From Allobosea sp. ASV33 (GTDB taxonomy: Bacteria > Pseudomonadota > Alphaproteobacteria > Rhizobiales > Beijerinckiaceae): DNA of 64,000 nt. A program made the translations under genes and the position numbers. Positions within the stretch are counted from its first letter, which is position 1; each line of letters begins with the position of its first letter. The stretch is taken from positions 1-64,000 of the forward strand of contig NZ_JAELTI010000010.1 of the NCBI RefSeq assembly GCF_016428755.1, written 5' to 3'. Shown one piece after another: positions 35,214 to 49,643 of the stretch. The notes beneath the pieces are model-generated. The model was not told the DNA's origin. It saw only the letters and a list, made by a program, of their open reading frames with translations, and did no database searches.

Positions 35214-36773
35214 ATGCCGGGCTATCGTATTGACCGTCAGCCATCGTCGACGCTCGGACCGCTCACGCTCCGCCGTCGCTGGAAAATCATCTGCACCTGC
35301 GTCGCAATATCGTTAGCGGCTGCCGGGGCCTTCATCCTGCTCAAGGGCGCGGCCTATACCGCCACGACGCAGTTCCTGGTCTACGTCAAGGAAGTCCAGC
35401 CCGGCTCGGAGCTCGTCGTTTCGCTTGGGCGTGCCGATCTCACCCAGGTCGAGAACGAGATCGAGATCATCCGCTCGCGCGGCACGCTCGCCAAGGTCGT
35501 CAACGCCCTCGATCTGGCCGACGACCCCGAATTCGTCCCTGCCGCGACGCTGCCCCTGGATCTGGTCCGCAACCTTTTCGGCCTGCGGCAAACGTCGCCC
35601 GACGAGAGCCGCAACCGGCAGGAAATCGCGATCGAATCCCTCGCGAAACAGGTCGCGCTGCAGCGGGTCGGGACGAGCCATGCCATCCAGCTCAAGGTCA
35701 CCACGTCCGCAGCGGAAAAGTCCGCGCTGATCGCCAGCGAGATCAGCCAGGTCATGCTGCAGGCGCGCGTCAGCGCCGATCAGGACGGCGAGCGCTCGCC
35801 GCTCCTGCGCGAGCGCCTCCAGGGACTGGGTCCGGCCGTCTATGTGATGACGCCCGCCCTCATCCCGGACAACCCTAACGGCCCCCGCAAGATTCTCGTC
35901 CTGCTCGGTGCGCTCGCCGCCGGCTTCGGGATCGGGGCGGTGCTTGCCCTGCTCCTCGACCTCAGGGACAGGTCGATCCGCACGGCGGCGCAGGTCGAGC
36001 AATTCGGGCTGGAGTGCCTCGGCGCGATTCCCTGGCTCTCACGCGAGAAGCCCGTGCCTTCGGGCCGCGGCAACGCCCTTCGCGCCCAGGCGGCGCAGGA
36101 CGGGCTCCACCCCGCCCCTCTGCTGACCCAGACGCTTCTGCGGATGGCGGTGGCCACCGAAGCGGCGAAGGCGCGCGTCGTCGGCATCGCATCGCCGATC
36201 GCCGGAGACGGTGCGACGACCGTGGCGCGGCATTTCGCCGAGGCCGCCGCCCGTAACCAGAAAGTGCTGCTCGTCGAGGCAGGCCGGGGCGCGACGGCAA
36301 CGCCCGGCGCGGCAATTCCCGGTGACAGCCATCCGGAGCCGCGCGACGGCGACCTCTGGCACGACGATGCGGGCGGCCCCGACGTCCTGACCATCGCGGC
36401 CTCGGCCGGCGGCGACGGCTGCGCGAACTGGTGGATGCATTGCGGCCGCAAGTCGCTCGCCGCCTATGACCTGATCGTCGTCGGCCTGCCGCCTCTCGAA
36501 CAGGGCGCCGCCTTCCGCATCGCCGCGCAGAGCATCGACGGCATCCTGCTGGTGATGAAATGGGGCGGTGCCGATGTCGAGCGGATCGAGCGCGCCTTCG
36601 CCATCTCGGGGGCGATGCCGACGGATTTCATCGGCGCGGTCCTGAACGGCATCGACGGCCGGATGATCGGGCTGTTCGGAGACAAGCTCTGGAAAGCCGA
36701 AACCGTCGTGGGGGCTCGCCGCAGCCCGTTCGCCTTTGAAATGCCGGCCGAGCCGGCTGCTGGATCAGCGTGA
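35214..36773 (+). CDS. Polysaccharide co-polymerase with degenerate tyrosine-kinase domain (Wzz/ExoP-like)
   Basis: A 519-residue inner-membrane protein controlling polymer length and export. Membrane helices at about 25-45 and 226-245 flank a periplasmic Wzz domain, whose C-terminal border has the proline motif TPALIPDNPNGPRK. The cytoplasmic BY-kinase-like domain has Walker A changed to GDGATT (Ala334 where Lys is expected), and no C-terminal tyrosine cluster is visible, so kinase activity is doubtful. It is followed by the OPX gene 14 bases later. Resembles the second co-polymerase at 56520. Confidence 0.87.
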   Translation: MPGYRIDRQPSSTLGPLTLRRRWKIICTCVAISLAAAGAFILLKGAAYTATTQFLVYVKEVQPGSELVVSLGRADLTQVENEIEIIRSRGTLAKVVNALDLADDPEFVPAATLPLDLVRNLFGLRQTSPDESRNRQEIAIESLAKQVALQRVGTSHAIQLKVTTSAAEKSALIASEISQVMLQARVSADQDGERSPLLRERLQGLGPAVYVMTPALIPDNPNGPRKILVLLGALAAGFGIGAVLALLLDLRDRSIRTAAQVEQFGLECLGAIPWLSREKPVPSGRGNALRAQAAQDGLHPAPLLTQTLLRMAVATEAAKARVVGIASPIAGDGATTVARHFAEAAARNQKVLLVEAGRGATATPGAAIPGDSHPEPRDGDLWHDDAGGPDVLTIAASAGGDGCANWWMHCGRKSLAAYDLIVVGLPPLEQGAAFRIAAQSIDGILLVMKWGGADVERIERAFAISGAMPTDFIGAVLNGIDGRMIGLFGDKLWKAETVVGARRSPFAFEMPAEPAAGSA

Positions 36774-36787
36774 AACGGAGAAATGCT

Positions 36788-38077
36788 ATGATGAAGCGGA
36801 ACCGTTCATGGGTAAATCTCGTCGGCACAGCCTCGCTCCTGCTGTGCATGCTCGACGGCAATGCCGTCCGCGCGACGTCGGACTATATCGTCCGCGCGGA
36901 CGACAAGCTGAAGATCAAGGTCTTCCAATACCCCGAGCTGAGCGGCGACTATAAGGTCCGCGCGAACGGAACGATCTCGATCGCGCCGATCGGCGATATC
37001 CCGGTCACCGGCCTCTCGACCAAGGAGATCGCGACCCAGATCTCGGAGCGCTTCGTGCGCTCGGGCATTTCCGACAAGCCCGGCACCTCGGTCGAGGTTC
37101 TCGAGACGCGGCCGGTCTATGTGCTGGGCGACGTCCAGAAGCCCGGCGAATACCAGTTCCGCCCGGGGATGACGGTGCTGCAGGTCGTCAGCCTGGCCGG
37201 CGGCTGGCTGCGCTTCAACGACCCCGCCCTGATGCGGCTCGACCGCGACAGCATCACCATCAGCGGCGAGATGCGCAACCTGGTCCGGCGCTACTACGAG
37301 CTGACGGCACGCCGGGCACGGCTGAATGCCGAGCTCGCGATGCGGACGGACATCCAGTTCTCGAACGATCTCGTCCTGCGCTCGCAGGTCGATCCCGCCG
37401 TGCGGCAACTGATCGACGAGGAGCGCTCGCTGCTCAACATCCATGTCGACGCGCTGAAGACCCAGATCGACAGCCTGGAGCAGAATCGCGGCCTCTACGA
37501 ACGCGAGATCGACGCGATCAAGCGCCAGATCGAGGCCAACAAGGTCCAATCGGCCAGCGTCGAGCGGGAGCTCGTCGAGGTGCGGAACCTCGTCAAGCGC
37601 GGCCTGACGACCATCAGCCGCCTCGCCAATCTCGAACGCATGCAGGCCCAGCTCGAGATGAACGAACAGGGCTTCCAGACCCTGATCCTGCGCTCGCGCC
37701 AGAACATCACGCAGGCCGACCAGCGGATCTTCGACCTCAAGAGCCAGCGCAATGCCGCGGTGACCGCCGAAGTCCAGAAGGTCCGGATGGATATCGACGA
37801 TGTCAGCGTCAGGTTCGACACCAACCGCAGCCTGCTCGTCGAGGCCAAGGTGACCGTGCCAGCCCTGGTCGGCGTTTCCGACGGCGCCGTCGAGACCAAG
37901 AGCCTCGTGGTCGTGCGCATGCTGGACGGCAAGACGCAGACGATCGACGCGACCGAGAACACCGAACTCCTGCCCGGCGACGTGCTGCGCATCCAGAGGA
38001 CCATCCTTCCGGGCACGCTGGGCATCGGCACGCTCGAGCAGACCAGCATGATGACGCCTGTCGGCGTCAAGCAGTGA
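36788..38077 (+). CDS. Polysaccharide export (OPX) protein, Wza/ExoF-like
   Basis: A 429-residue exported protein; GGAG lies upstream of ATG 36788, and a hydrophobic signal covers residues 8-30. It has a polysaccharide-export domain (DYIVRADDKLKIKVFQYPELSGDY), a SLBB domain (VYVLGDVQKPGEYQFRPGM), and a long coiled coil (about 170-330) before a second SLBB-like end. No lipobox was seen, so it is more ExoF-like than Wza-like. It forms the outer-membrane or periplasmic exit with the upstream co-polymerase. Confidence 0.88.
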   Translation: MMKRNRSWVNLVGTASLLLCMLDGNAVRATSDYIVRADDKLKIKVFQYPELSGDYKVRANGTISIAPIGDIPVTGLSTKEIATQISERFVRSGISDKPGTSVEVLETRPVYVLGDVQKPGEYQFRPGMTVLQVVSLAGGWLRFNDPALMRLDRDSITISGEMRNLVRRYYELTARRARLNAELAMRTDIQFSNDLVLRSQVDPAVRQLIDEERSLLNIHVDALKTQIDSLEQNRGLYEREIDAIKRQIEANKVQSASVERELVEVRNLVKRGLTTISRLANLERMQAQLEMNEQGFQTLILRSRQNITQADQRIFDLKSQRNAAVTAEVQKVRMDIDDVSVRFDTNRSLLVEAKVTVPALVGVSDGAVETKSLVVVRMLDGKTQTIDATENTELLPGDVLRIQRTILPGTLGIGTLEQTSMMTPVGVKQ

Positions 38078-38881: not shown

Positions 38882-40810
38882 TCAACGCTCCCGCAAGCTG
38901 TCGTGCTGGTAGCGGGCGAGCGGCGAGAGCAGATAGCTGATGATCCGCCGCCGGCCCGTCTTGATCTCCGCCGTCACGGCCATGCCGGGCGACAGATTGA
39001 CCTGCTTGTCCTCGACCGCGAGCTGCGTGCGATCCAGCGAGATCCGGGCGGAATAGAGCAGTTCCTGGCCACGCGGCTCGCTGCTCTCGTTCCCGGCCCC
39101 CGACGTCTTGTCTCCGCCATTGCCGGGCGCCTTGTCGCGCGCGATCGCATCCTGTGAGATGCTCAGGATCGTGCCGTGCAGCAGGCCGTAGCGCGTGAAG
39201 TTGAAGGTATCGACCTTGACCGCCGCAGCCTGGCCCGCACTGACGAAGCCGATATCGCGGTTCGAGATCATCGCCTCGATTTCGAGCCGGCTATCGGCCG
39301 GGACGATGTAGAGCAAGGTCTGCGCGGGGGTCACGACGCCGCCGACCGTGTGGATCGCGAGCTGCTGGACCATGCCGTCGACCGGCGCCGTCAGCCGTTG
39401 CAGGCTCTTGCGCTGCTCGGTCTTGACGATATCGCGCGCGAGGCCGGCCGCCTTCTGCCGGGCCTTGCTGAGCTCGTCGAACAGGGTCCGCTCGTATTCG
39501 GCGATGGTCTTGGTGCGGGTCTCCATCAACGCCACGACCGCGGCATTGGTCTCGCTGCCGCGCTTCTCCTGAACCAGGATGTCCTGGCGCTGACCGACCA
39601 GGTCCTGCAATTCGGTGAGATAGGTCACCTTGGAGCCAAGCTCCTTCTGGAAGAGCTGCTCGCGAATCTCGACCCGCTGCTGAAGCGGCACGATCGTCGA
39701 CTTGAGCTTGTCGACGGAGGCCTGGATCGTGTCGCGCTCCGCCACCTTCTGGGCAAGCTGGCCGTCGATCGTGGCGAGCTTGGCCTTCTGCTCGCTGCTC
39801 TGGCTGATCAGCAGCCCGCGATAGACCTGGAGCAGATCGGGCGGCGCATCCGCCGGCGGCTTGAAGGCCGCCAGGGCATTGTCCTTGTCGTCGATCGCGG
39901 CCTGCAATCTGGCCATGTCGAGGCGCGCGGCCATCAGGTCGCCCTGCAGGTGGCCGAGCTCAGCTTCGACAGCGGTCGTGTCGAGATCGACCAGCACGTC
40001 GCCGGCCTTGACGCTCTGGCCGTCGCGGACCCGGATCGCCCGCACGACGCCGGTCTCGAAAGGCTGGATCATCTTGATCCGGTCGCTCGGGATGATCTTG
40101 CCCGGCGCGACGGCGACGATGTCGACCGTGCCGATACAGGCCCAGGCCAGCGCCGCGGCGAAGACCGAGATGATGCTGAACCCGATGATGCGCCCCAAGG
40201 GTGACGGCGGCGTCTCGACGATCTCGAGCGCGGCCGGCAGGAAGGCGAGCTCCAGCGAGCGCAGGCGCTTCTCGTCGGTCGAGCGGGTGATGATCGCCTG
40301 CTGCAGCGCCTGCGAGCGCATGGCGATGCCGCTCACGGCGCTGCGGGTGTTTTCCGCGCCCCAGCGCGCCGTCGTCACGAGGGCCTGGCGCGCCCGCTCC
40401 GTCACCGCCTCGTCGAAGCGCGGGATCAAGCCCGCCTTGGCCGGCTCCAGCAGGATGACGCGGCCATTCCATTCGGCCTCGAACTCTTCCCGCGTCATCA
40501 GGACCGGCCGCGGGCTGTCGGCGCCGACGACCAGAACCTTCTCCTCATTGGCCTTGCCGAGCAGGAGGAACCCGCCGTTGCGAAGCCCGGCGATGCAGGG
40601 CAACGACAGGCCGGCGAGCTTCTCCCAGCCGACGGAGCGGGAGCGGCCCCGGAAGCCGTGGGCCCGCGCTCCGCGCAGAATCTCGGCCGGCCCGATGTCC
40701 CCCTCGCCCATCTGCTGGCGAAGCTCATCGGTCGTGACGGAGGCGCCGCGCAGGCGCAGCAGCATTTCCAGGGCGAACAGCCCCGATTGATTATGTGTGG
40801 ACGCTTGCAT
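38882..40810 (-). CDS. HlyD-family type I secretion adaptor with N-terminal C39-like domain
   Basis: A 642-residue membrane fusion protein, longer than the usual 400-480. Residues about 8-122 form a peptidase-C39-like domain resembling the N-terminus of the partner ABC transporter (SGLFALEMLLRLRGASVTT; GGFLLLGKANEEKVLVV). The catalytic Cys is Ser9 and the His position is lost. A membrane helix (about 208-226), a biotinyl-lipoyl-like segment (RVRDGQSVKAGDVLVDLDTT), long coiled coils (about 285-480) and the HlyD C-terminal beta domain follow. It is last in the operon substrate-ABC-HlyD. Confidence 0.9.
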   Translation of the reverse strand: MQASTHNQSGLFALEMLLRLRGASVTTDELRQQMGEGDIGPAEILRGARAHGFRGRSRSVGWEKLAGLSLPCIAGLRNGGFLLLGKANEEKVLVVGADSPRPVLMTREEFEAEWNGRVILLEPAKAGLIPRFDEAVTERARQALVTTARWGAENTRSAVSGIAMRSQALQQAIITRSTDEKRLRSLELAFLPAALEIVETPPSPLGRIIGFSIISVFAAALAWACIGTVDIVAVAPGKIIPSDRIKMIQPFETGVVRAIRVRDGQSVKAGDVLVDLDTTAVEAELGHLQGDLMAARLDMARLQAAIDDKDNALAAFKPPADAPPDLLQVYRGLLISQSSEQKAKLATIDGQLAQKVAERDTIQASVDKLKSTIVPLQQRVEIREQLFQKELGSKVTYLTELQDLVGQRQDILVQEKRGSETNAAVVALMETRTKTIAEYERTLFDELSKARQKAAGLARDIVKTEQRKSLQRLTAPVDGMVQQLAIHTVGGVVTPAQTLLYIVPADSRLEIEAMISNRDIGFVSAGQAAAVKVDTFNFTRYGLLHGTILSISQDAIARDKAPGNGGDKTSGAGNESSEPRGQELLYSARISLDRTQLAVEDKQVNLSPGMAVTAEIKTGRRRIISYLLSPLARYQHDSLRER

Positions 40811-40900: not shown

Positions 40901-43123
40901 TCAGCGCTGGTGGCCCGCCAGCGCCGGCAGCGTCGCCGCTTCGGAGCGCATGCCCGCGTGGCCTGCCCCCGCTGCGACGCCGCTATTCTCCGGCAGGCCC
41001 GACTGGAGCCGGTGCAGCGTGGCGTATCGCCCGCCTGTCCGCACCAGCTTCTCATGCGTGCCGTCCTCGATCAGCCGGCCGCTCTCGATCGTGACGATGC
41101 GATCGGCCATCCGGAGCGTCGAGAGACGATGCGCGATGATGAGCACGGTGCGGGACCGCGCGATCTGCGCCATGTTCTGCTGGATGATGTGCTCGCTCTC
41201 GTAGTCGAGCGCGCTGGTCGCTTCGTCGAAGATCAGGATGCGCGGGTCGGTCGCCAGCGCACGGGCGATGGCGATGCGCTGGCGCTGCCCGCCCGACAGG
41301 CTGCCGCCGCGCTCGCCGACGACCGTGTCATAGCCCTCGGGCAGCTTCAGGATGAAGTCATGCGCGCCGGCGAGCTTGGCGGCCTCGATCACCTTGTCGG
41401 CCGGCAAGGCCGGATCGGCCAAGGCGATATTGTCGCGGATCGAGCGGTTGAACAGGATGTTGTCCTGCAGGACCACGCCGATCTGGCGGCGAAGCCAGGA
41501 CGGATCGATCTGGGCGACATCCACCCCGTCGATCAGGACCCGGCCGCTTTCCGGCACGTAGAGGCGCTGGGCGAGCTTGGCCAGCGTGCTCTTGCCTGAA
41601 CCGGACGGCCCGACGATCCCGATCATCTGCCCGGCCGGAATGGTCAGGTTGATGTTGTGCAGGATCTCCGGCCCGTCGACCCGGTACCGGAAGGTGACAT
41701 GCTCGAAGCTGATGTCGCCGCGGATCGCAGGCAGCGCCGTCCGGTTCGGATTGTAGGACGGCTCCGGCGTGGTGTTGAGGATGTCGCCGAGACGGGCGAT
41801 CGACAGGCGCGTCTGGTGGAAATCCTGCCAGATCTGAGCCAGCCGCAGGACCGGGCCGCTGACGCGGCCCGCGAGCAGGTTGAACGCCACGAGCTCGCCG
41901 ACCGAGAGCTCCCCCCCGATGACCAGCTTGGCGCCGACATAGAGGATCGCGGCGGTCACCAGCTTGCTGACGAGCTGGACGGACTGGCTCGCGATATTGC
42001 CCAGGCTCAGCACCCGGAAGCTCGCCGCGACGTAGGCCGCCAGTTGCTCCTCCCAGCGCTGCTGCATCTGGGGTTCGATCGCCATCGACTTGAGCGTCTC
42101 GACCGCCGTGACGCTTTCGACCAGGAAGGCCTGGTTCTCGGCGCCGCGGGCGAACTTGTCGTCGAGATAGCGCCGGAACAGCGGGGTCACGCCGACCGAT
42201 ATGCCGATATAGACCGGCAGCGAGGCCAGCACGATCCAGGTCAGCGTCGGTGAGTAGAAGAACAGCGCCGCGACGAAGACGAGCGTGAAGAACAGGTCGA
42301 TGACGAGCGTCAGGCCCGAACTGGTCAGGAAGTTGCGGATATTCTCGAGCTCGCGCACGCGGGCGACGGAATCGCCGACACGCCGCGCCTGGAAATAGCC
42401 GATCGGCAGCGCCAGCAGATGGCGGAACAGGCGCGCGCCGAGCTCGACGTCGATCCGGTTCGTGGTGTGCGAGAACAGATAGGTCCTCAGCGCGCCGAGC
42501 ACGACCTCGAACAGGGCGATCGCCACGAGCCCGACCACGAGCACGTCGAGCGTGCTGATGCTGTGATGCACCAGGACCTTGTCGATGACGACCTGGAAGA
42601 AGAGCGGCGAGATCAGGCCGAAGAGCTGGAGGAAGAAGGACGCGACCAGCACCTCGGCGAGGAGCGCGCGATATTTATGGATGGCGCCCATGAACCAGGT
42701 GATATCGAAGCGGCGCGCGAGATCGGTCAGCGTCGCGCGCTTCGTCATCAGGACGAGGCGCCCGTCCCAGATCGCTTCCAGCTCGGCACGCGAGAGCATG
42801 CTCGGGCGCGGAGCGTTCGGCGCCTGGACGAGGATGCTGTCCTCGCCGACACGGCCGAGCACGAGGAAACCGCCATCGCTCAGCGCCGCGATCACCGGCA
42901 TCGGCGTCTTGGCCAGGCGTTCCCAGTTCGTGGAGAGAACGCGCGCCTTGAGACCGAGGCCCTTGGCGCAGCGCACCATCTCGGTGACCCCGATGGGCCG
43001 CCCCGGGAACTGGTGCTGGATCTGCTCGGGAAGGACGCTGACGCCCTGACCGCGCAGGATGAAGAGCAGCGCGACGAGACCGTCGTCAGAGATCGGATGG
43101 GTATCGTTATCGGGATTTTTCAA
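40901..43123 (-). CDS. Type I secretion ABC transporter with inactive C39-like domain (HlyB-like)
   Basis: Exporter half-transporter of about 740 residues. The N-terminal C39-like domain has Asp14 in place of the catalytic Cys (SDDGLVALLFILRG), so it should bind rather than cleave substrate. Six membrane helices span about 145-420. The ATPase has Walker A GPSGSGKST, signature LSGGQRQRIA and Walker B ILIFDEATSALD. The start is uncertain: I use TTG at 43123 (AGGG upstream), but the frame continues to an ATG at 43189 without a good ribosome site. Upstream is the repeat-protein substrate; downstream is the HlyD-like adaptor. Confidence 0.9.
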   Translation of the reverse strand: MKNPDNDTHPISDDGLVALLFILRGQGVSVLPEQIQHQFPGRPIGVTEMVRCAKGLGLKARVLSTNWERLAKTPMPVIAALSDGGFLVLGRVGEDSILVQAPNAPRPSMLSRAELEAIWDGRLVLMTKRATLTDLARRFDITWFMGAIHKYRALLAEVLVASFFLQLFGLISPLFFQVVIDKVLVHHSISTLDVLVVGLVAIALFEVVLGALRTYLFSHTTNRIDVELGARLFRHLLALPIGYFQARRVGDSVARVRELENIRNFLTSSGLTLVIDLFFTLVFVAALFFYSPTLTWIVLASLPVYIGISVGVTPLFRRYLDDKFARGAENQAFLVESVTAVETLKSMAIEPQMQQRWEEQLAAYVAASFRVLSLGNIASQSVQLVSKLVTAAILYVGAKLVIGGELSVGELVAFNLLAGRVSGPVLRLAQIWQDFHQTRLSIARLGDILNTTPEPSYNPNRTALPAIRGDISFEHVTFRYRVDGPEILHNINLTIPAGQMIGIVGPSGSGKSTLAKLAQRLYVPESGRVLIDGVDVAQIDPSWLRRQIGVVLQDNILFNRSIRDNIALADPALPADKVIEAAKLAGAHDFILKLPEGYDTVVGERGGSLSGGQRQRIAIARALATDPRILIFDEATSALDYESEHIIQQNMAQIARSRTVLIIAHRLSTLRMADRIVTIESGRLIEDGTHEKLVRTGGRYATLHRLQSGLPENSGVAAGAGHAGMRSEAATLPALAGHQR

Positions 43124-43270
43124 TCGCCGGACCCTGCATTGATGATGTTGAGCGCGTGCACGCGGGGAACAGCCCCGCGTGCACGGCATTGAGAGCGTAG
43201 GACGCTCCGGTGGGATAAAGCAGCGGGCGAGGCCGGGCTCGGCGCAAGGCCTGCCCAGCCCCGCCCACGG

Positions 43271-45733
43271 TCAGGCCTGCGCCTTCGCGAGCGTCTGAGC
43301 CGTGTTGTTCAGCCAGTCCTGCGCCTGGGCGGTGGTGCCCGTCGCGGGGATGGCGAAACTCGACGCCGCATACTGGTCGAGCAAGGCCAGCCGGGACATC
43401 GCGGAGCTTTGCGCCGGCGCAGCCGTGGCTGCGCCGTCGAACGCGTTGACCCCGGCGTCCGAAGCACTGGCTCCGGACTCCGCAGCACCGGGATAGCCGA
43501 CCGTCCTGCGGTTGCCGAAGGAGAAGTCGCCTCCCCAAGCCGCATGACCGCCGAACCAGTCGCTCCAAGGAGTCGGTGCCGCGGCCGGCGAGGTCGCAGC
43601 CGTGTCCGGGCCTGTCGCGGCGGGCGCCGGAGCGGCCGGAGCGACGAGATCGGTCGCGGAAGCCAGCGTCGTCGGCTGGCTGGCCGCGACCGTCGCAGCC
43701 GTCGTTGCGCTAACAGCCAGCGTCCCGGCAGGCTGATGCGGCGCGCCGGCAACATTGACGGCGTTCCCGGCCCGATCCCTGACACCATTCAGGTTGTAGC
43801 TGGAGACCTCGAGATCGGCAGCCTTTTCGCCGGCCTGCACCTTGTAGTCGAACTGCAAGGTGCTGGTGCCGGCGCCACCGACATATTTGGCGGTGCCCTT
43901 GCTGTTCAGCGACAGGGTCGGCGTGCCGTTGACCGTCACCACCTCGTTGAAGTTGACCGACAACCTGACGATATCGCCGACGCCGACGGTACCGCTGCTG
44001 TTGGTGAGCTTCGACCCGGTGGCGGCGATCCACTGGACCTTCGGCGCCGTGGTGTCGCCAGCGGCCACGGCGTTGACGACCAGCGTTCCGGCGGGCTGAT
44101 GCGGCGCCCCGGAAACATTGACGGCATTACCGGCCTGATCCTTGACGCCGTTCAGGTTGTAGCTGGAGACCTCCAGGTCGGACGCCTTTTCGCCAGCCTG
44201 CACCTTGTAGTCGAACTGCAAGGTGCTGGTGCCGGCGCCGCCGACATATTTGGCGGTGCCCTTGCTGTTCAACGACAGGGTCGGCGTGCCGTCGACGGTC
44301 ATCACCTCGTTGAAGTTGACCGACAGCCGGACGGTATCGCCAGCGCCGACGGTGCCGCTGCTGTTGGTGAGCTTCGACCCGGTGGCGGCGATCCACTGGA
44401 CCTTCGGCGCCGTGGTGTCGCCAGCGGCCTTGGTATCGACGACCAGCGTTCCGGCAGGCTGATACGGGGCGCCCGACAGGCTGAGCGCATTGCCGGCCTT
44501 GTCCTTCACTCCGCTCAGGTTATAGGCGCTGATCGCCAGATCGGCCGTGTTCTGACCGGCCGCTACCTTGTACTCGAACTGCAAGGTATCGGTGCCGGCG
44601 CCGCTCACATATTTGGCCGTGCCCTTGTCGTTGAGCGACAGGGTCGGCGTACCACTCACATTCACCGCTTCGCTGAACTTCAGCGTCAGCCTGACGGTAT
44701 CGCCGGCATGGACCGTGCCGGTGCCGTTCGTGACGCCGGGGCCGTTGGCCGCCACCCACTGCACGGTCGGCTTGGTCGTATCGGGAGACGTGCCGGTCGG
44801 CGGAGTCGTGACCGGCGGCGTGGTGACGGGGGGCGTGACGACCGGCGGGGTGGTCACCGGGGGATTAGTGCCGTTGCCGCCGGACGAACCGCCCGTGTTG
44901 CCCGAAGGGGTACCGCCGCTCACGCCCTGGAGCAAAGGCGTGATGCTGCCCATGTCATGCCAGAGCTGGGTCATCGTCGCGTCGTCGAAGGCATTCGCCT
45001 GCGCACGAACGTTGGTGACGCCACCGGCGACGTCGACGACATAGGCGCCGTATTGCTGCATGGCCTTGAAGACCTGCTGGCCCAGCGGAGAAAGGCCGGC
45101 AGGCATCGGCGTGCCCGGCGGAATGCCGAGAAGCTGCCCTTCCTTGACGATACCCGACGCGCTGCCGCCGTCGCTGGAGATCGCCTGGCCGACGGCACCC
45201 GCCTTGACGAGCGTACCGTCGACGACGAGTTGCAGCGCGTGATCGATCGAGCCGTCCTTGACTTCGTCCTGAACGATCAGGCCGCCAAGCTGGCTTGCCC
45301 CGACGGCGGTGATCCCCGCCGCCAGGAAGGGCGAACTGCTGCCCCATCCGTCGCCGGTGACGATATTTTCGTAGGCCATCGAAACGGCAGACGCAGTCGT
45401 CGTGCTGGTCCGTTTGAATTGCCAGAAATTGTACGCGATGTCGCCATCGATGACGACCAGCTCACCATCGGTGCCCGCGGCGCCATTGGCGGCTGCCGGC
45501 ATGTGAACGCTGATGGTGCCGCCAGGATATCCCCAACCCGCGGGGTAAGTGACCTGGACGAGCGGATCTGAAGCGGAAGCAACGTAAACCGAAGGGGAAT
45601 ATCCATCCCAGGCTACACTGTAGTTATACCCAGTCGAAGAAGGCCAACCCAGTTTGGTGAAAGTTGCGTCGCTGGCTAGTGGTGTATTCCAACTCGAAGA
45701 AGCGGTGAATGGCCGGGTTTCGAGTGAGGTCAT
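43271..45733 (-). CDS. Large repeat protein, probable type I secretion substrate
   Basis: An 820-residue protein without a signal peptide; TAAGGAA precedes ATG. Residues 1-265 form an uncharacterised domain (SSWNTPL, YVASASDP, GTDGELVVIDGD, YNFWQFKR, DHALQLVVD, YGAYVVDVAGGVTN), shared with the Sec-exported protein at 47399. A Pro/Thr/Gly linker (about 285-325) leads into three 121-residue Ig-like repeats (310-672), e.g. RLSVNFNEVMTVDGTPTLSL, of the type common in giant type I adhesins. The Ala-rich C-terminus ends AQDWLNNTAQTLAKAQA and may carry the secretion signal. No RTX nonapeptides are present. First gene of the secretion operon. Confidence 0.8.
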   Translation of the reverse strand: MTSLETRPFTASSSWNTPLASDATFTKLGWPSSTGYNYSVAWDGYSPSVYVASASDPLVQVTYPAGWGYPGGTISVHMPAAANGAAGTDGELVVIDGDIAYNFWQFKRTSTTTASAVSMAYENIVTGDGWGSSSPFLAAGITAVGASQLGGLIVQDEVKDGSIDHALQLVVDGTLVKAGAVGQAISSDGGSASGIVKEGQLLGIPPGTPMPAGLSPLGQQVFKAMQQYGAYVVDVAGGVTNVRAQANAFDDATMTQLWHDMGSITPLLQGVSGGTPSGNTGGSSGGNGTNPPVTTPPVVTPPVTTPPVTTPPTGTSPDTTKPTVQWVAANGPGVTNGTGTVHAGDTVRLTLKFSEAVNVSGTPTLSLNDKGTAKYVSGAGTDTLQFEYKVAAGQNTADLAISAYNLSGVKDKAGNALSLSGAPYQPAGTLVVDTKAAGDTTAPKVQWIAATGSKLTNSSGTVGAGDTVRLSVNFNEVMTVDGTPTLSLNSKGTAKYVGGAGTSTLQFDYKVQAGEKASDLEVSSYNLNGVKDQAGNAVNVSGAPHQPAGTLVVNAVAAGDTTAPKVQWIAATGSKLTNSSGTVGVGDIVRLSVNFNEVVTVNGTPTLSLNSKGTAKYVGGAGTSTLQFDYKVQAGEKAADLEVSSYNLNGVRDRAGNAVNVAGAPHQPAGTLAVSATTAATVAASQPTTLASATDLVAPAAPAPAATGPDTAATSPAAAPTPWSDWFGGHAAWGGDFSFGNRRTVGYPGAAESGASASDAGVNAFDGAATAAPAQSSAMSRLALLDQYAASSFAIPATGTTAQAQDWLNNTAQTLAKAQA
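43717..44805 (-). repeat. Three tandem 363-base coding repeats
   Basis: Units at 44443-44805, 44080-44442 and 43717-44079 share exact 363-base spacing and encode 121-residue Ig-like modules. The second and third units are nearly identical over long stretches, suggesting recent duplication or gene conversion; the first is more divergent. Confidence 0.9.
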
Positions 45734-47398: not shown

Positions 47399-48403
47399 CT
47401 ACCGTGACGCCGTCGCAGGCGTCTTTTGCCCGGGATATCCGACGCGCTGAAGCAGCGGCGAAATCCGGACGAGATCCCGATCCAGCGCCGTGATCGTCGA
47501 CTGATCATAGGCGTTGGCCTGGGCTCGCAGATTGGTGACGCCTCCCGCGACGTCGATGACGAAAGCGCCATAGCGCTGATAGGCACGGAAGACCTTCTGC
47601 CCCAGCGGCGACAGCCCGTCCGGCATTCCGGCCGTGGCGGGGATGGCCAGGCGCTGACCTTCCTGGAGCAATCCTTTCGGGTTCGGTCCATCACCGCTGA
47701 TGGCTTCACCGATATGCCCCGGCTTCGCATAGTTCCAGTCGATGACGAGCTGCAGCGCATGCCCGATCTCGCCTTGATCCGTCTCCGCCTGAACCAGCAG
47801 GCCGGCGAGCTGGCTCGATCCCGCTGCCACGATGCCGGCGCCGAGAAAGGGCGACCTACGCCCCCAGCCGGTACCTGTTGCGACATTCGTCGCGGCATAG
47901 GATTGCGCCGTGGCCGCCTCTGGGCCCGTCCGCCGGAACTGCCAGAAGTTATGGACGGTGTCCCCGTCGATCACCAGCAGTTCCCCATCGGTTCCCGACG
48001 CCCCGTCGACACCGGCGGGAAGGCGCACCCTGACGGTGCCGGCCGGAAGGCCCCAGCTCGGCGGATAATCGATGGCCACGACCGGATCGGAAGCGGAGGC
48101 GATGTAGACAGCCGGAGAGTAGCTGCTCCAGGCGACACCGAAACGAGCGCTCGGCGGCCAGCCGACCTTGCGAAAAATCGCGCCCGCACGGATCGGCGTA
48201 TTCCAGGAGGAGGTCGCGGCGAATGGCCGCTTGCCGAGGGCGAAGCCGCGCCCCGGCGGATCGTCCTTCACCGTCTGTGGCTGCTGCGCGGCAGCGGACG
48301 ACGCCCATCCCAAGGCAGCGAAAAGGGCGAGGCACAGGGCAAGCCGGAGCCGGGCCACGATGATGGAGGCACGGAGGCCGGGTTGCGGGCGAGGCGACCT
48401 CAT
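47399..48403 (-). CDS. Sec-exported paralogue of the type I substrate domain
   Basis: A 334-residue protein with a signal peptide (LRLALCLALFAALGWASSAAAQ, cleavage near 40). The remainder is one domain (about 60-325) aligning with residues 1-265 of the protein at 43271: SSWNTPI, VYIASASDPVVAIDYP, GTDGELLVIDGD, NFWQFRR, HALQLVIDW, GLSPLGQKVFRAYQRYGAFV. It lies between two glycosyltransferase genes, which points to a role with the polysaccharide. The fold and activity are unknown to me; similar sequences occur, as far as I recall, in secreted proteins of actinobacteria. Confidence 0.8.
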   Translation of the reverse strand: MRSPRPQPGLRASIIVARLRLALCLALFAALGWASSAAAQQPQTVKDDPPGRGFALGKRPFAATSSWNTPIRAGAIFRKVGWPPSARFGVAWSSYSPAVYIASASDPVVAIDYPPSWGLPAGTVRVRLPAGVDGASGTDGELLVIDGDTVHNFWQFRRTGPEAATAQSYAATNVATGTGWGRRSPFLGAGIVAAGSSQLAGLLVQAETDQGEIGHALQLVIDWNYAKPGHIGEAISGDGPNPKGLLQEGQRLAIPATAGMPDGLSPLGQKVFRAYQRYGAFVIDVAGGVTNLRAQANAYDQSTITALDRDLVRISPLLQRVGYPGQKTPATASR

Positions 48404-48452
48404 CGCGCGATTTTCCAGCAAGGGTGGCTGCGACGGGTCTCGCGCGTCATGC

Positions 48453-49643
48453 TCATCGCTCCGTCCGGACCCAGCCGACCTGGCGGTGCACGAAGAAGCG
48501 GATGAAGGACGGAATCTTGGACAGGCAATAGCCCGGGCCCGCCGCCAGCTCGCGCCAGGACATGATCTCCCGGCCGAAACGCCACCATGCGGCGCCGATC
48601 GTCGCGACGAAGCCGGCCAGCGCAATCGAGGAGACGGCAAGCGGACCGGCAGACCTCGTCGCGCCGAACCACGCGAGGCTCGCGCCTTCCATCAGCATCA
48701 GCGATATCGCCAGCAGCGCCAGCGGCGGAATGCACAAGTCGAGTGTGAACGCCAGGAGGCGCAGGCTGCGCCGCGCGATCGCCTCTCTAATCATGGGAAG
48801 GAGGAATTCGCCGATGATCGCCAGGTGCCCATGTTCCCATCGCGTGCGCTGCTGGCGCTTTCCGGCCTCGGCCTCGGGGAATTGGCTGACGACCAATGCA
48901 TCGGGGCAGAACTGCGGCGACCGATGCCCCAGCACGAGCTCCGCGCTGATCTTCTGATCCTCCGTGAGGTGGCCGGTCGCGAGATCCAGCTTGCGGGCGA
49001 GATCGTAGGGCAGAGCCATGCCGGTCCCCATCAACTGGCATGGCCACCCCAGGCGCGTGGAGCCCAGCGGCCTCACGAAGGTCTTCACGGTCCATGCGAG
49101 CCGCGAAACCTTGTCGGCCGGGCTCGGGGATGGCGGCGCCAGCATCACATAGCGCGCCTGCATGGGGCGGCCCGTTGCAGCACAGCGTTTCGCCAGAAGC
49201 TCGAGCGTCCCCGGCGCGACCTCGCAATCGGCATCGATGACGATGACGACCTGCGGCGGATCGGATGTCAGGGAGCGGATGCCGTGATCCAGCGCATAGC
49301 CCTTTCCCGTGCGCGCGGGATCGCGACGGATGGTGACGCCGACGCCGGCACTCGCGGCAATCTGCGCGGTATCGTCGGTGCAATTGTCGGCCACGACCAG
49401 CAGGCGCCCTGTCGGCGGCATGCGGGACATGAGCGAAGCGATGGTGCGTGAGATGACCGCCTCCTCGTCATGGGCGGGCATCACGACCGTGAAGCGCGGG
49501 CAGGTAGCAAAGCTTTCCGATGCGAACCGGCGCGCAGGCAGGAGCGCCGCCCCGATCTGCAAGGCGAGGAAGGCGACCGGGATCGCCGTGAGAACCCCGA
49601 GCGCAAGCAGGGCAAGGTCAATTGCATCGACGATGACGGCCAT
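48453..49643 (-). CDS. Membrane glycosyltransferase family 2 (processive type)
   Basis: A 396-residue protein with one N-terminal and about three C-terminal membrane segments around a GT-A domain. Motifs are VVMPAHDEEAVISRTI, DADCEVAPG (DxD), LTEDQKISAEL (TED) and QQRTRWEHGH (the QxxRW motif of cellulose/hyaluronan-synthase-like enzymes). It may elongate the polymer or add a branch at the inner membrane. Stands 49 bases upstream of the Sec-exported domain gene. Confidence 0.9.
   Translation of the reverse strand: MAVIVDAIDLALLALGVLTAIPVAFLALQIGAALLPARRFASESFATCPRFTVVMPAHDEEAVISRTIASLMSRMPPTGRLLVVADNCTDDTAQIAASAGVGVTIRRDPARTGKGYALDHGIRSLTSDPPQVVIVIDADCEVAPGTLELLAKRCAATGRPMQARYVMLAPPSPSPADKVSRLAWTVKTFVRPLGSTRLGWPCQLMGTGMALPYDLARKLDLATGHLTEDQKISAELVLGHRSPQFCPDALVVSQFPEAEAGKRQQRTRWEHGHLAIIGEFLLPMIREAIARRSLRLLAFTLDLCIPPLALLAISLMLMEGASLAWFGATRSAGPLAVSSIALAGFVATIGAAWWRFGREIMSWRELAAGPGYCLSKIPSFIRFFVHRQVGWVRTER

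Follow-up and report, generated by a model that had tools for sequence, protein, structure and literature searches.

In the window (the whole 64,000-nucleotide stretch of DNA analysed here), we identified a type I exporter whose membrane fusion protein (MFP) of the HlyD family carries at its N-terminus a C39-like domain (CLD), a domain that the partner ABC transporter also bears. We further found 12 related exporters in which two CLDs stand in tandem on the ABC protein and the MFP is unfused. On balance, we think it probable, though by no means secure, that the accessory CLD is an extra substrate-receiving domain beside the canonical CLD of the ABC protein, with a substrate and a binding that we infer. 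No description of a CLD on an MFP or of tandem CLDs was found in the open-licence literature searched, including passages of PMC8277102, PMC11026475, PMC9751043, PMC12607715 and PMC8939145. An earlier note on this DNA had claimed that in known systems the CLD sits on the ABC protein only, and that literature, as far as those passages extend, indeed describes no CLD-bearing MFP. On this basis, the CLD on the MFP is a new arrangement in type I secretion, which may have been described elsewhere, and the tandem CLDs on the ABC protein are a second arrangement, likewise without a description in the passages searched. The earlier note had also proposed two CLDs in one exporter, one on each subunit; the second CLD on the MFP is real, but the proposal was incomplete, because the tandem on the ABC protein is another way of carrying two.

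The MFP gene (38882..40810, minus strand; 642 residues) was recognised from its open reading frame and from matches to Pfam and TIGR01843. The TIGR01843 match (390.9 bits; cut-off 208.65) starts only at residue 204 and covers the type I HlyD core, residues 204-642 (38885..40201, minus strand), while hydropathy places a membrane helix near residues 208-226 (40133..40189, minus strand). The N-terminal extension is therefore about 200 residues long, as had been estimated. With a TIGR01843 score above the cut-off, a helix before the periplasmic part and an adjoining ABC gene, the protein is otherwise an ordinary type I MFP. The extension begins with the accessory CLD, residues 1-125 (40436..40810, minus strand), delimited by Pfam, by alignment with the CLD of the ABC protein and by a fold model, and continues as a weakly conserved linker, residues 126-203 (40202..40435, minus strand), which is predicted to be helical, mostly with low confidence. 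PF03412 (Peptidase_C39) matches residues 4-125 of the MFP at 42.6 bits and the ABC protein at 46.0 bits (Pfam cut-off 22). Aligned with the CLD encoded by the neighbouring ABC gene, the first 122 or so residues of the MFP are identical at 48 of 119 positions (40%; E = 1e-25), and the resemblance to the partner's C39-like domain that the earlier note had seen by eye is thus well founded. In BLASTP the two CLDs scored 97.8 bits; when the same 125 residues were shuffled 500 times, the highest score was 27.3. Chance similarity is ruled out by these shuffles, by the Pfam score and by the fold match that follows.

The extension was modelled with AlphaFold2 from 23 accessory-type sequences, with no canonical ABC CLD among them. 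The model is of high confidence over residues 11-120, where block means are 88-97; elsewhere confidence is mostly low. A Foldseek search of the PDB with the CLD model returned the CLD of HlyB (3zua; E = 5.1e-8) as the top match, followed by C39 peptidases, and in VIA-align the model superposed on 3zua with a Z of 16.7 (rmsd 2.0 over 119 residues). The comparison with the HlyB CLD that had been suggested for this domain therefore came out in favour of a predicted C39 fold. The same N-terminal fold is found in the PCAT/AMS transporters PCAT1, ComA and LahT, and the model reached Z 17.7 against 6mpz and Z 17.2 against 3k8u. We regard the C39-like identity of the N-terminal domain of the MFP as close to certain.

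Could either CLD in the window be a peptidase? In the MFP, Ser9 occupies the position of HlyB Tyr9, which is that of the catalytic Cys, Phe81 that of HlyB His83 and Gly96 that of HlyB Asp100; in the ABC-borne CLD these three positions are occupied by Asp, Phe and Ala. Thus neither copy is the active Cys-His-Asp peptidase of a PCAT, Cys and His being missing from both, as previously noted for these sequences. The Asp in the Cys position of the ABC protein is residue 36 from the first ATG, and it becomes the Asp14 of the earlier note if translation starts at TTG codon 23. Across this exporter family, Cys and His are missing from 71 of 71 CLDs, and Asp is present in four. In contrast, according to passages of PMC8277102, PCAT/AMS transporters cleave double-glycine leaders with a working Cys peptidase. 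The same passages propose the stacking pair Trp77-His83 of HlyB as a possible hallmark of CLDs. Gly75 and Phe81 stand in its place in the CLD of the MFP, and none of the 71 CLDs, canonical ABC CLDs included, has the Trp or the His, a difference of the whole family from HlyB. We therefore class the domain of the MFP as a degenerate C39 domain and not as the HlyB subtype.

The HlyB-type ABC transporter is encoded at 40901..43189 (minus strand; 762 residues from the first ATG, a later start being possible) and matches TIGR01846 at 1032.9 bits (cut-off 725.55). Its canonical CLD, matched by PF03412, spans residues 35-152 (42734..43087, minus strand), and in all 12 loci with a fused MFP the ABC protein retains its own CLD. 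The pair resembles HlyB/HlyD in combining a TIGR01846 ABC protein that bears a degenerate CLD with a TIGR01843 MFP, in the order of the genes, ABC before MFP, and in the CLD fold. HlyD itself is not known to carry a CLD, and the passages of PMC8277102 and PMC11026475 mention none on it. Another difference from HlyB/HlyD is that the probable substrate in the window is devoid of RTX repeats. SiiCDF, which is encoded on Salmonella SPI-4 and exports SiiE, is similar in having an ABC-borne CLD and a non-RTX substrate with Ig repeats, but it has a single CLD, on the ABC protein, together with an extra SiiA/SiiB channel, and the passages of PMC12607715 that we used make no mention of a CLD on the MFP SiiD.

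In which lineage of CLDs does the accessory domain belong? A tree of 71 CLDs unites the 11 MFP-borne CLDs and the 12 first CLDs of the tandems in one group (96/95), which stands apart from the canonical CLDs. The fused locus L043 was omitted from trees and residue counts, which thus use 11 of the 12 fused loci, and the accessory and canonical HMMs were trained on the very rows that they separate. The tandem-CLD loci (L053-L057 of Bradyrhizobium, L100, L113, L116, L117, L118, L120 and L121) therefore share with the window a CLD of the accessory group but differ in bearing it on the ABC protein, before the canonical one. Their cores are close to those of the window, at 75-78% identity for the ABC protein and 52-62% for the MFP. 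A single CLD was found in 24 other loci of the same set (24 of the 47 in the core tree); since the loci were chosen as matches to this exporter, the numbers of fused and tandem loci are not prevalences. Both placements together, a fused MFP and a tandem ABC protein, were seen in none of the loci read, tandems being looked for in ABC genes of exporters from the genus up to the order level.

Within the accessory group of the full tree, neither the MFP-borne CLDs nor the first tandem CLDs form a clade. After removal of eight long-branched rows, six of them accessory (two MFP CLDs and four first tandem CLDs), the accessory group received 98/97, and the remaining nine MFP CLDs (98/80) and eight first tandem CLDs (100/94) each came together. 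For 47 loci, L058 and the remnant locus L123 being left out, we built a quick tree from the ABC and MFP cores. Systems with an MFP-borne CLD form a single clade there (SH-aLRT 99), tandem systems form a second (95), and single-CLD systems lie between the two. Two histories would fit these patterns: the accessory CLD may have a single origin and have since been relocated or transferred, or it may have originated twice, with later convergence. Grouping of the MFP CLDs with the CLDs of their own ABC proteins gave p = 0.256 in the AU test with the full set and p = 0.045 without the eight long-branched rows. Because the two CLDs of the window are only about 40% identical and fall into separate tree groups, the sequences disfavour a recent copying of the neighbouring ABC CLD onto the MFP. 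Plain local duplication of the tandem CLDs is not rejected by the AU test (p = 0.179 with the full set, 0.164 without the eight rows); with the full set, separate duplications are compatible with the test for both placements (p = 0.256 and 0.179).

What, then, could the second CLD do? The role of the CLD in type I secretion is debated, the domain being regarded as a substrate receptor, a chaperone or a holder of the MFP, and passages of PMC11026475 credit the one CLD of HlyB with all three. According to passages of PMC11026475 and PMC9751043, the HlyB CLD binds its substrate in the unfolded state, at sites outside the secretion signal, and specificity is determined mainly by this domain; three HlyB dimers and six HlyD make up the inner-membrane complex; without the CLD, export through HlyB stops altogether (PMC11026475, in the same passages). 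The exporter family described here has two CLD copies with different surfaces, the second on either subunit, and offers a way to tell these functions apart.

The residues that hold HlyD are informative in this respect. The structure of HlyB with HlyD shows an acidic cluster of HlyD in contact with five basic CLD residues, at positions 56, 58, 62, 66 and 128 (passages of PMC11026475). Position 56 is basic in all 48 canonical CLDs but in only 10 of the 23 accessory ones (2 of 11 on MFPs, 8 of 12 in tandems), and position 128 in 48 of 48 versus 5 of 23 (3 of 11 on MFPs). The difference is smaller at position 66 (46 of 48 versus 16 of 23; 8 of 11 on MFPs); position 58 offers no contrast (39 of 48 and 19 of 23), and position 62 is basic in a single one of the 71 CLDs. 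The rows are related by descent, so that these counts do not represent independent events. In the window itself the contrast is small, with three of the five positions basic in the MFP CLD and four in the ABC CLD. Judged by these residues, the HlyD-holding surface appears to be partly lost in the accessory CLDs as a group, at positions 56 and 128, and the ABC CLD of the window still has most of the basic set by which HlyB holds HlyD.

These residues also bear on the foremost alternative, in which the MFP CLD would bind the ABC protein or its CLD and so fasten the two subunits together, leaving the substrate to the canonical CLD. Such an assembly clamp would be in keeping with passages of PMC11026475, in which the CLD is already the part of HlyB that touches HlyD, and with the basic residues that accessory CLDs retain at position 58 and often at position 66, the window's copy having three of the five. 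However, the erosion of positions 56 and 128 speaks against it, as do the tandem exporters, in which a second CLD on the ABC protein adds no link between ABC protein and MFP and yet belongs to the same tree group. We consider this alternative unlikely.

We therefore return to the extra receiving domain. The gene pair would encode a type I exporter, composed of ABC protein and MFP, with two kinds of catalytically dead CLD. The accessory CLD at the N-terminus of the MFP would lie in the cytoplasm, separated from the membrane helix by a linker of some 60-80 residues, where it would bind a stretch of a large unfolded non-RTX substrate, most likely the 820-residue product of the gene upstream, and prevent it from folding next to the entrance of the ABC protein; the canonical CLD would, in addition, hold the complex together. 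If the stoichiometry is three dimers to six HlyD, as in HlyB/HlyD, the complex would contain 12 CLDs and not six. As ABC protein and MFP would be present 1:1, the number of CLDs would not depend on which subunit bears the accessory one, and this would explain the tandem placement on the ABC protein in relatives. Such a doubling of the CLD count and the partly lost MFP-holding residues both speak for an extra receiving domain, and the extra copy on the motor subunit of relatives suggests that some exporters profit from doubled receiving domains. Several observations run against this reading. According to passages of PMC8277102 and PMC9751043, known contacts between CLDs and substrates involve RTX stretches, of which the probable substrate has none; position 58 shows no contrast, the MFP CLD is under looser constraint than the ABC CLD, and the single-CLD loci of the core tree manage with one. 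More tentatively, we can imagine a wider picture in which a separate lineage of CLDs, largely freed from holding the MFP, constitutes a portable substrate-receiving module that can be mounted on either of two 1:1 subunits, giving 12 instead of six per complex for large non-RTX cargo. The fusion also shows that a complete folded domain can be borne by an MFP, on the side presumed to be cytoplasmic.

The probable substrate (43271..45733, minus strand; 820 residues) is encoded directly upstream of the ABC gene and in the same direction, and we base its status on this position and on a C-terminal motif. The last 39 residues (43274..43390, minus strand), starting with LALLDQYAASSF, form a putative export signal, similar ends being found in proteins near related exporters, including 11 of the 12 tandem-CLD loci. 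By eye, the protein contains Ig-like repeats, which no Pfam family backs. The RTX pattern GG.G.D has no match in it and a looser pattern has one; because the protein lacks GGxGxDxUx repeats, we do not class the exporter as an RTX exporter. A strict form of the C-terminal pattern, which was drawn up after two such ends had been seen, has 17 matches among 1,803 open frames, every one of them in a double-CLD locus. A looser form (four hydrophobic or small residues, x, Q, Y/F/A/H, x, A/S), placed 38-45 residues from the C-terminus, was found in 19 of the 23 double-CLD loci versus 8 of the 24 single-CLD loci. At least four RTX-like repeats were present in none of the recognised candidates of 19 double-CLD loci, as against 5 of 10 single-CLD loci, 4 of the 23 and 14 of the 24 loci, respectively, having no recognisable candidate. 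The double-CLD loci in this comparison comprise only two clades, and the link between a double CLD and non-RTX cargo is suggestive only. A variant of the C-terminal end also occurs on RTX-repeat proteins beside the single-CLD exporters of L102, L104 and L105; cargo with and without RTX repeats may therefore share an export signal.

Might the accessory CLD instead choose among substrates? It could recognise a second substrate or gate the first, acting as a specificity switch or brake and not as added capacity. In HlyB, specificity is determined chiefly by the CLD (passages of PMC11026475), and the accessory domains differ from the canonical ones at fixed positions, His32 being present in 48 of 48 canonical CLDs and in 1 of 23 accessory CLDs. 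On the other hand, each double-CLD locus encodes at most one candidate substrate with the motif, counting the genes at the locus only, and a nearby paralogue of Sec type is without the C-terminal motif. We find this account rather improbable.

How widespread is the fusion, and is it maintained? A search for HlyD proteins with a C39 fold before the membrane helix, as the earlier note had advised, yielded 12 loci with a CLD fused to the MFP. Fused MFPs were present in 7 of 67 genomes of the genus (the window's own included), 3 of 199 at the level of the family, 4 of 397 at that of the order, 1 of 385 at that of the class (its own only) and 2 of 299 at that of the phylum (its own and one already seen in a narrower survey), each survey scoring the best 5-18 of up to 140 candidates per genome, so that diverged fusions may escape. 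The 12 loci are made up of seven from the genus, Rhizobiales 62-17, Bradyrhizobium sp. URHD0069 and three further genomes of the order, and the relatives with the fusion include Bosea sp. 67-29, Bosea sp. UNC402CLCol and two Rhizobiales isolates; L036-L040 and L008 were counted as the same loci as L095/L096 and L043-L047 from their equal places or frame lengths. Between the window and six relatives, dN/dS was 0.28-0.46 for the MFP CLD (below 1 in all six comparisons), 0.25-1.35 for the linker, which is hardly constrained, 0.10-0.16 for the MFP core, 0.10-0.16 for the ABC protein's own CLD and 0.07-0.09 for the ABC core. The MFP CLD is under purifying selection and is kept, with a constraint two to three times looser than that on the ABC protein's own CLD. 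The same architecture in 12 loci and these ratios rule out a frameshift or an assembly artefact. A relic, in the sense of a CLD duplicate that came to the MFP by drift and is only tolerated there, would fit the higher ratios of the MFP CLD and its linker and the lack of the fusion in most genomes searched, but it is very doubtful in view of the ratios below 1 in six of six comparisons, a reading frame kept in 12 loci of several genera, the confident fold model and the positions that are invariant across the 23 accessory domains, among them W62, L65, P71, F110, W114 and G116.

We also looked for the accessory CLD on viral contigs and plasmids and as a gene of its own. Among viral contigs, 305 stretches matched a search pattern and none encoded a relative. 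With residues 1-185 as the query, 15 plasmid records had a match, none reaching 80% query coverage; with the whole protein, no fusion was recognised among the best 40 of 2,436 plasmid records, of which two cover at least 80% of the query, one being identified as a match that starts at residue 130. The lone candidate for a free-standing accessory CLD gene, G516 (209 residues), was rejected: by eye it reads as a truncated ABC gene, consisting of a canonical CLD and the start of the membrane domain. At L123 (3625-4440, minus strand), a 272-residue frame fuses a CLD fragment with the C-terminal portion of an MFP, and it looks like the remnant of a deletion between adjoining exporter genes.

The exporter lies in an exopolysaccharide cluster with Wzz-like and Poly_export/SLBB proteins and three glycosyltransferases. 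One of these genes (36770-38077, plus strand) encodes a polysaccharide export protein (Poly_export, SLBB), residues 160-376 of which also match TIGR01843 at 57.2 bits, below the cut-off. The N-terminal domain of the probable substrate (residues 1-272; 44918..45733, minus strand) matched a Pfam family in none of 14 members and had no convincing match in the PDB, its fold model being poor (mean pLDDT 55.5). A paralogue of this domain, 58% identical, is encoded at 47399-48640 (minus strand) and has an apparent Sec-type signal peptide and no C-terminal motif. The domain may thus leave the cytoplasm by two routes, and it is likewise present in two copies at each of the seven loci closest to the window's (L043-L047, L095 and L096).
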